From Spirochaetales bacterium (lineage in GTDB: Bacteria > Spirochaetota > Spirochaetia > Sphaerochaetales > Sphaerochaetaceae): a stretch of 36,536 nt of DNA. Below the pieces are notes generated by a model. It saw only the letters and a program-made list of their open reading frames with translations. It was not told the origin of the DNA and searched no databases. The position numbers were made by a program, and so were the translations under genes. The DNA lies in contig JAAYDK010000142.1 of assembly GCA_012729295.1 (NCBI GenBank), positions 1 through 36,536 of the forward strand, in the 5' to 3' direction. This document shows, in pieces, positions 8,245 to 10,669 of the stretch; the stretch's first letter is position 1, and every line of letters starts with the position of its first letter.

Positions 8245-8553
8245 TCACTGTTTTATTTCTACATCCACGCCTGCGGGAAGCTCAAGCTTCATCAGGGCAT
8301 CCATGACTTTTGATGTAGGATCCAGTATGTCGATCAACCGCTTGTGAGTTCTCATCTCGAATTGCTCGCGAGACTTCTTATTGACAAAGGGCGATCTCAG
8401 AACAGTATATTTATTGATTCGAGTCGGTAAGGGCACGGGGCCGGAGACTTTGGCACCAGCCTTAACCACTGTCTGTACTATTGCTTTCGCGCTCTGTTCA
8501 ACAAGCTCTATGTCAAAACCCCTCAGCCGTACCCTAATTCTATCCTTAACCAT
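8245..8553 (-). CDS. rpsJ: 30S ribosomal protein S10
   Basis: [25 protein letters not shown] trimmed to the M after a GGAGG Shine-Dalgarno (start 8553 or the adjacent ATG at 8556) rather than the 8601 upstream ATG. Confidence 0.95.
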
Positions 8554-8562
8554 CATTCCTCC

Positions 8563-8602
8563 AAAAAACGGATCTTGCCCGCACCGATGCGGAACGGGCA
8601 AG
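8563..8602 (-). terminator. Candidate weak terminator/attenuator between tuf and rpsJ
   Basis: Minus strand CTTGCCCG-TTCCGCATCGGTG-CGGGCAAG (8-bp stem, alternative nested CCGCA/TGCGG stem), then ATCCG-TTTTTT and GGAGG (rpsJ SD). Confidence 0.45.
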
Positions 8603-8614
8603 ACATTCGTCTAA

Positions 8615-9805
8615 TCAGTCAAGAATCTCAATAACTTGTCCGGAAGCAACGGTTTTGCCGCCTTCGCGGATAGCGAAACGAAGACCTTTGTCCATAGCAA
8701 CCGGGTGAATCAATTCGATATTAAGCTCGGTATTGTCTCCGGGGAGAACCATCTGCTTGCCTTCGGGAAGATTCACGGTACCGGTGATGTCGGTCGTTCT
8801 GAAATAGAACTGCGGGCGATAACCGCTGAAGAACGGAGAGTGACGTCCGCCTTCTTCCTTCGACAATACGTAGACGGTACCCACAAACTTGGCATGGGGA
8901 GTAATCGACTTCGGCTTCGCAAGAACCTGTCCACGAACAACTTCTTTCTTATCTACACCGCGCAGCAAAGCACCGATATTATCGCCAGCCTGACCTTCGT
9001 CTAGCAGTTTGTTGAACATTTCAACGCCTGTGCATACAGAGTCTTTGGTCTCTTTAATTCCAACGATGGAAACAGGATCGTTCACATGGATGATACCACG
9101 TTCAATACGACCGGTAACAACAGTGCCGCGACCAGAAATCGAGAAGATATCTTCGATCGGCATCAAGAACGGCTTGTCAACGGCACGCTCCGGAAGCGGG
9201 ATATAGGAATCCATCGCGTCGAGGAGGTCCTGGATGCACTTGGTTTTTTCCGGATCATCGGGGTGTTCCATAGCTTCATAAGCCGAACCCTTGATAACGG
9301 GAGCATTCTTTCCATCGAATTGGAAGAACGTAAGAAGGTCTCTCATCTCTTCTTCTACGAGTTCGATGAGGTCCGGATCGTCAACCATGTCTACTTTGTT
9401 GATGAAAACAACGATTGCAGGTACACCTACCTGGCGGGCGAGAAGAATGTGCTCTCTTGTCTGGGCCATGGCACCGTCGGTTGCGGCAACAACGATTACG
9501 GCTCCGTCCATCTGGGCAGCTCCGGTAATCATGTTTTTGATGTAGTCGGCGTGTCCCGGGCAGTCTACGTGAGCATAGTGCCGATGAGCACTCTGATATT
9601 CTACGTGCCGGGTGTTGATGGTAATACCACGGGCTTTCTCTTCCGGGGCATTGTCGATTTCATCATAGTTCAAGACTTTGTCACCGAACGTGCGCCCGCA
9701 ATAAATGGTGATTGCTGCGGTGAGGGTAGTCTTGCCATGGTCGATGTGACCGATGGTTCCAACGTTCACATGTGGCTTTGTTCTCGAAAATTTTTCTTTA
9801 GCCAT
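8615..9805 (-). CDS. tuf: Elongation factor Tu
   Basis: 396 aa from [37 protein letters not shown] just upstream; the listed 463-aa ORF is an in-frame extension into the leader. Confidence 0.98.
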
Positions 9806-10085
9806 CAGTTCCTCCTTGTGACCTCTTCTATGGTCACAAACTTCATGTTCATAAAGGCAAGACGCCTTTACCTTCATATTGGAGAGACAAACGGCATTCT
9901 GTTGTCGAGCAAGGATAAGGGAGGGATCCAGAGGTCGAAAGTCTACAGAGGACTGCCGACATAGTACAGACTTTAAAAGATCTGTAAACTGGAACCACCT
10001 TATCATCCAAGCATTTCGAACAGGATGATCGGTTTGGCTCTTGCAACGCCTTCCAGGGCATACCTACCCATTCATGAAGACGCCT
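9806..10085 (-). promoter_or_regulatory. Structured ~280-nt 5' leader of tuf
   Basis: Lies between a predicted promoter and the tuf SD; contains perfect hairpins at 9816-9839 (8 bp), 9852-9870 (7 bp) and 10002-10029 (7 bp). Confidence 0.6.
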
Positions 10086-10090
10086 TTGCC

Positions 10091-10119
10091 ACTATAGTTG
10101 GTTTGACAAATTGTGTCAA
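10091..10119 (-). promoter_or_regulatory. Sigma70-type promoter of tuf
   Basis: Minus strand TTGACA-17 nt-TATAGT (-35 at 10119-10114, -10 at 10096-10091). Confidence 0.8.
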
Positions 10120-10147: not shown

Positions 10148-10184
10148 AAAAAGACCGAGACTCCGGTGGAGAATCGGCCTTTTT
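10148..10184 (-). terminator. Rho-independent terminator downstream of rpsG
   Basis: Minus strand AAAAAGGCCGA-TT-CTCC-ACC-GGAG-TC-TCGGTCTTTTT followed by ATTGTTTTTTTG. Confidence 0.88.
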
Positions 10185-10198
10185 TCGGTATCCAATTC

Positions 10199-10669
10199 TT
10201 AGCGGTTGTGTGCTGAGAAGGCCTTGTTGGCTTCCGCCATCCGGTGCGTATCTTCTTTTTTCTTGAAAGCAGATCCGGTATTGGCAAACGCATCCAGCAA
10301 TTCGGCAGAAAGCTTTTCAGCCATCGATTTGCCGTTTCGACCACGTGCAGCAGTGATAATCCAGCGCATGGCCAATGCTTCGCGACGATTATCTTTAATC
10401 TCGACCGGCACCTGATAGGTTGCTCCGCCTACTCGACGAGATTTGACCTCGACAACCGGCTTAACATTTTCAAGAGCTTTCATAAATACTTCAAGAGCCG
10501 GTTCTCCGCTCTTCTGTCCCACAGTCTCAAGCGCTTGATAAATGATACGCGAACTAATCGATTTCTTACCGTCAAGCATCATGCGGCGGATAAACTTCTC
10601 CACTACAATACTGTTGTATACGGCATCGGGTAGAATTTCACGTACCGGCGCTACAGTTCTTCTTGCCAT
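10199..10669 (-). CDS. rpsG: 30S ribosomal protein S7
   Basis: 156 aa; [20 protein letters not shown]...[11 protein letters not shown]. Confidence 0.98.

Follow-up and report, generated by a model that had tools for sequence, protein, structure and literature searches.

The leader that precedes tuf in most of the Spirochaetia families sampled contains a conserved structured RNA, and the core of this RNA very probably derives from the 3′ end of the canonical str-operon fusA gene (EFG I), as its position and codon strings suggest. What is new here is that origin: the core as the remnant of a dead fusA gene, kept as RNA. The leader lies in a window (the whole stretch of DNA that was analysed) of 36,536 nucleotides from a Spirochaetales bacterium. 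The account as a whole, in which a conserved cis-acting RNA with a noncoding fusA remnant at its core would let a protein adjust expression of tuf and the S10 operon, we judge marginally more probable than its negation.

Locus, leader and conserved core

On the minus strand of the window, the gene order is rpoB-rpoC-rpsL-rpsG, a terminator-like hairpin, a promoter, a leader of ~280 nt, tuf, and rpsJ-rplC-rplD (Table 1). A preliminary description of this DNA had proposed a promoter that gives tuf a leader of ~280 nt, three perfect hairpins within that leader, and a tuf gene that stands outside a classical rpsL-rpsG-fusA-tuf operon and has its own promoter. These observations held. The predicted promoter is present and conserved across the window's own family (coded f1; other Spirochaetia families are f3, f4, and so on), no fusA gene lies between rpsG and tuf, and all three hairpins exist, although the one at 10002-10029 is no more than the apical part of a bulged stem that extends further (10037-9995). 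In nearly every f1 member, the predicted start is 24 to 62 nt upstream of the core. The leader folds at −97.3 kcal/mol; dinucleotide shuffles gave −80.4 ± 5.0 kcal/mol, and 1 in 100 of them was as good (z, −3.35). We take the leader to be beyond chance because of conservation and covariation in relatives, not because of this single-sequence fold.

Searching at the DNA level recovered the leader throughout f1, with 66 to 83% identity over the longer matches; in the f1 alignment, the promoter and blocks of sequence are conserved, and the loops vary. We gathered tuf upstream regions from ~43 Spirochaetia families. The deepest conserved element was CCAAACC-hairpin-AGGTGG, which was located ≤600 nt from tuf in 80 loci from 27 families; with f27 added, the core is found in the rpsG-tuf interval in 28 of the ~43 sampled families. 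A strict pattern run against 84,980 species matched 29 contigs, all titled as spirochaetes. tuf was downstream of the match in 28 of the 29, at 106 to 281 nt (the fetched stretch of the remaining one was too short), and the rpsG stop codon was upstream in 28 of the 29. The element was upstream of tuf wherever it was found and checkable. A looser pattern had no match in 132 sampled genomes from other classes of the phylum. Families f7, f14, f19, f21, f28, f29, f32, and f36 have neither fusA nor the element, indicating that the element is dispensable.

In f29, f32, f36, f28, f7, f14, and f21, from which both fusA and the element are missing, tuf follows rpsG or a gap; loss of both is thus possible. 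Three loci of the Borreliaceae-like family f19 (L294, L297, and L298) carry a different conserved leader hairpin, TTTTAGAAAAACACG...CGGGTCAATTTCTAAAA, ~150 to 250 nt before tuf. In one f18 locus (L296), the rpsG-tuf interval holds a degenerate trace, CCGATCATCC, which may be a remnant at a later stage of decay.

We measured covariation in 73 distinct core sequences from 27 families, with both strands joined and loops removed. The loci had been picked by the outer strings alone; the covarying inner stem played no part in their selection. The core has the architecture of a bulged hairpin, CC-AA-ACC-[hairpin]-A-GGU-GG, whose inner part is 16 to 98 nt long across loci. Two-sided changes occurred in 10 of the 15 core pairs (96 cells, versus 28.6 ± 6.3 in shuffles), and pairing was 89.8% in register, falling to ≤59% once the partner was slid by 1 to 3 columns. 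The CC, ACC, GGU, and GG segments were nearly invariant, and the core holds thirteen nearly invariant nucleotides. There was no variation at all in CC/GG, in the A-U pair or in the first C-G pair of the middle stem; these positions are therefore uninformative on pairing, but they point to sequence recognition. We conclude that the core of the tuf leader is a conserved structured RNA.

The preliminary description had named covariation in relatives and an Rfam scan as ways to check its proposal. The former bore out the structure, with compensatory changes in the stems and the broad retention of the element given above. The latter gave no family: the window and 12 relatives had no match among 4,227 Rfam families, with nothing above chance at gathering or permissive thresholds. 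A search of the open PMC literature returned no paper on a tuf leader RNA in spirochetes.

Table 1. Features of the tuf locus and its leader in the window
Feature	Positions	Strand	Basis
rpsJ (S10); begins the S10 operon 3′ of tuf	8245..8601	-	Pfam
tuf (EF-Tu, 396 aa); ATG at 9805	8615..9805	-	Pfam
Shine-Dalgarno GGAGG of tuf	9811..9815	-	Sequence
Leader (untranslated) of the operon that begins tuf-rpsJ-rplC-rplD; start predicted at ~10085	9806..10085	-	Promoter, fold z, family conservation
Hairpin TTGTGACC...GGTCACAA abutting the Shine-Dalgarno	9816..9839	-	Compensatory variants
Hairpin TAAAGGC-gtctt-GCCTTTA, conserved in f1	9852..9870	-	
U/C-rich TCCCTCCCTT 3′ of P3; candidate anti-SD, able to pair with GGAGG of tuf	9917..9926	-	Duplex scan
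Second domain: P3, TCCAG 9993-9989/CTGGA 9931-9927; P4, ACAGA 9985-9981/TCTGT 9970-9966; P5, GTCG 9960-9957/CGAC 9937-9934	9927..9993	-	
Core element: CCAAACC (10037-10031), inner hairpin, AGGTGG (10000-9995); probable fusA-derived bulged stem	9995..10037	-	Recurrence, covariation, fusA homology
Inner hairpin, arms ATCATCC (10029-10023)/GGATGAT (10008-10002)	10002..10029	-	Two-sided changes in 7 of 7 inner pairs
Probable fusA remnant A-K-P-I-I-L (GCC AAA CCG ATC ATC CTG)	10021..10038	-	nhmmer fusA-tail profile, E 0.0013, profile 258-291
Sigma-70-type promoter TTGACA-17-TATAGT, 11 of 12 consensus matches	10091..10119	-	Conserved in nearly all f1 relatives
Terminator-like hairpin 3′ of rpsG; parts the str genes from tuf	10148..10184	-	Inverted repeat and terminator-like sites
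rpsG (S7), upstream neighbour	10199..10669	-	Pfam

The core and the lost fusA gene

In f16, f35, f37, and f39, fusA stands directly before tuf, and the best call for the element lies inside fusA. Both core halves correspond to codons of the fusA 3′ end, A-K-P-I-I-L ... G-G-K-V-V; in the fusA gene of G192, for example, these regions read GCC AAA CCA ATC ATC CTG (A-K-P-I-I-L) and GAT GGT AAG GTG GTT (D-G-K-V-V). The fusA strings are near-identical to those of leaders that lack fusA, and their order and the gene interval in which they lie are identical. The two pieces are ~105 to 115 nt apart in fusA, a spacing reduced to a hairpin loop in the leaders. In f13 and f41, some likeness runs beyond the core (GGKVVQAVVLL and GGKVVAAHASV, versus GGKVVKAHVPL).

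An nhmmer profile built from 12 fusA tails matched leaders of nine families, the window leader scoring best (E, 0.0013). Core pieces made up 26 of the 28 sense-strand matches, at the two matching zones of the profile, while a control with reversed sequences gave 2 weak matches, located elsewhere. Individual nhmmer matches were weak. A protein-level EF-G search of the leaders gave E values of 0.2 to 2.4, from pieces too short for significance, with matches on the sense strand alone. The case for homology with fusA is made by position, collinearity, the near-identical strings, and the reversed-sequence control.

EFG I is normally encoded in the str operon (PMC3150367); it is absent from spirochaetes, which have spdEFG1 and spdEFG2 in its place (PMC3150367, PMC4342817). 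The window genome has three EF-G-family genes, all on other contigs. The EF-G genes of genomes with fusA-less loci have different tails, in accord with the published replacement. We found a str-type EF-G in 16 of 395 genomes of the class; five further, weaker matches were divergent paralogues. The preliminary description had put the leader forward as a candidate cis-regulatory RNA. The part of this that stands is a conserved structure with compensatory changes upstream of tuf; the core, however, appears not to be free-standing, being the likely fusA remnant.

We also considered when the RNA arose. Two intact fusA genes, those of G192 (f37) and G051 (f16), contain a complete paired hairpin (P values of 0.004 and 0.037, respectively, versus synonymous codon versions), a result that is suggestive only, because 15 genes were tested. 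Other intact fusA genes have the hairpin in part, and the invariant strings are missing from f9 and f39. In a tree built from the tuf and S10-operon proteins of 59 loci, most fusA-bearing families fell in one clade. Families f29 and f32, which lost fusA and did not keep the element, are nested within this clade. Fast trees hinted that fusA was lost several times independently, each time with retention of the same remnant, but a single loss was not rejected (AU test, p 0.548). Tentatively, and with some doubt, we suggest that the ancestral fusA 3′ end may have been both coding sequence and an RNA that controlled the tuf-S10 operon downstream, of which only the regulatory hairpin would have been kept, class-wide, after replacement by spdEFG1 and spdEFG2.

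Candidate regulatory role and its alternatives

Dedicated control of EF-Tu, as proposed in the preliminary description, is too narrow a reading, since tuf opens a tuf-S10 ribosomal operon. This position makes control of tuf-S10 in cis, through an RNA-binding protein, the most likely role, and we consider it probable that the leader regulates the operon in cis. The ancestral order would have been rpsL-rpsG-fusA-tuf-S10 operon. In this lineage of Spirochaetia, the EFG I gene would then have been lost except for two short segments from its 3′ end (A-K-P-I-I-L and G-G-K-V-V). The retained pieces would form the bulged hairpin CC-AA-ACC-[variable stem]-A-GGU-GG, with its almost invariant outer part. 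The tuf-S10 mRNA may be recognised at its invariant bulged stem by an RNA-binding protein of the translation machinery, which, once bound, would adjust expression of tuf and the downstream ribosomal-protein genes. In f1, this could alter ribosome access at the tuf start by way of two elements, the hairpin next to the Shine-Dalgarno sequence and a U/C-rich stretch able to pair with that sequence. Recognition of the core by a ribosomal or other translation protein is plausible, and we lean slightly against it.

The element might instead serve the str (rpsL-rpsG) transcript, as part of its 3′ end, in termination, 3′-end processing, or read-through into tuf. In one subclade (f8, f27, f34, and f43; loci L057, L058, L292, L103, and, from f43, L110), the element follows rpsG and the best predicted tuf promoter is downstream of it; in L292, a terminator-like hairpin lies between the element and the promoter. 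The main tuf transcript in these families would therefore not carry the element, which would be present at most on read-through transcripts from rpsG, and "leader of tuf" is thus not a universal description. Most families, however, have the predicted promoter upstream of the element, the window has both a terminator and a promoter between rpsG and the element, and a T run rarely follows the element. We consider a role as the str 3′ end unlikely.

A more specific form of the protein-binding account holds that the CCAAACC/AGGTGG stem imitates helix 49a of 23S rRNA, and that a protein located at that helix, such as uL22, binds the leader and represses the operon autogenously. E. coli 23S rRNA contains CCAAACC-GACAC-AGGTGG at 1606-1623, with 0 mismatches to the stem strings (1 of 300 shuffled 23S sequences was as good), and a Sphaerochaeta-like 23S rRNA has 1 mismatch (11 of 300 shuffles as good). 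Helix 49a comprises 23S positions 1611-1620 (PMC3753638), A1614 in its loop adjoins the uL22 hairpin loop (PMC6685948), and rplV (uL22) is inside the downstream S10 operon. A Treponema pallidum-like 23S rRNA, by contrast, departs from the stem at the outer pair and does not match it significantly. Moreover, the leader has another loop in place of the one through which helix 49a contacts uL22, and the CCAAACC/AGGTGG string is already accounted for by fusA codons. The 23S rRNA of the window organism itself was not found in the assembly; the spirochaete sequences compared were the Sphaerochaeta-like and T. pallidum-like ones. The likeness to helix 49a would name uL22 and is a weak lead; we regard mimicry of this kind as decidedly unlikely, and uL22 in particular as an improbable identity for the recognising protein.

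Transcription attenuation, in which binding of a ligand or protein would toggle a terminator between the element and tuf, has a precedent in the E. coli S10 leader, which acts partly in this way through uL4 (PMC10931766). Terminator-like sites between the core and tuf were found in 3 of 80 leaders, however, versus 2.1 expected by chance, and attenuation is very improbable. We rejected a leader peptide or surviving EF-G fragment, with the AKPIIL frame still translated, as scarcely credible: the window does have a 22-aa open reading frame in the fusA frame (10003-10071), but an in-frame ATG or GTG occurs in only 30 of 80 leaders, one open frame spans both core halves in only 10 of 80, and core changes track base pairing rather than codons. 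Barely credible, too, is neutral debris from a slowly decaying, functionless pseudogene, since decay of a lost gene, even one whose trace is missing from several families, would not be expected to leave thirteen nucleotides nearly unchanged in 27 families, together with compensatory changes, at loci chosen by their outer strings and not by the covarying inner stem.

The leader can be set beside known systems. The E. coli S10 leader, regulated by a ribosomal protein of its own operon, uL4 (PMC10931766), is likewise a long structured leader ahead of the S10 operon. In the spirochaetes, however, tuf parts the leader from rpsJ, a bulged hairpin apparently made from fusA forms the core, no terminator separates core and gene, and no Rfam family matches. 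The E. coli str operon is controlled by uS7 (PMC10931766), again through regulatory RNA inside the rpsL-rpsG-fusA-tuf cluster, but the S7 site falls in the rpsL-rpsG interval, whereas the spirochaete element is between rpsG and tuf. The leader also resembles the ribosomal-protein leaders in Rfam (L10, L20, S15, and others) as a cis RNA with variable arms and a small invariant core like a protein site, although it matches none of them. Protein genes have turned into RNA genes elsewhere; Xist arose partly from a dead protein gene, and there, too, coding function is gone and part is retained as functional RNA. The spirochaete case differs in that it concerns a cis element in bacteria, and the two strands of its single hairpin would once have been codon strings.

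The element would be a new RNA family in a large class to which Treponema belongs, situated before a gene set that ranks there among the most highly expressed, and a clear bacterial case of a dead protein gene with two codon strings surviving as conserved hairpin strands. It would also offer a handle on the coordination of EF-Tu and ribosomal proteins in spirochaetes that split EF-G function between spdEFG1 and spdEFG2, and it suggests a search for hidden RNA elements within intact fusA genes.

Other leader domains near the tuf start

The second domain (P3 to P5) was seen only in f1, f3, f4, f17, f22, and f25. P5 had two-sided changes in 4 of 6 pairs, P3 was nearly invariant by pair counts, and P4 was present with differing sequences, as counted by crude automatic parsing. 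The candidate anti-SD was the top or near-top pairing site in many group I leaders, though not universally, and was not the top site in many families. An anti-SD role is suggested for the window's group only, that is, the six families with the second domain. The hairpin abutting the Shine-Dalgarno sequence has compensatory variants in relatives (GGC/GCC, GAT/ATC, and GTGT/ACAC), with the sequences compared by eye. Together with the candidate anti-SD, it speaks for a translational step in the window's group.

Three further observations concern the leader 5′ end and long-range pairing. AAGGTGTCT at the leader 5′ end is conserved in f1. A direct repeat, AAGACGCCTTTRCC, occurs at 10077-10090 and 9859-9872, such that the leader 5′ end duplicates an arm of the hairpin at 9852-9870 and could displace that arm. 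Finally, GAGCCAAAC (10040-10032) can form a long-range pairing with GTTTGTCTC (9892-9884) that is exclusive with the core stem and is seen in f1. Alternation between this pairing and the core stem is a possible switch; two loci, L012 and L013, have compensatory GGACCAAAC/GTTTGCTCC at the paired positions.
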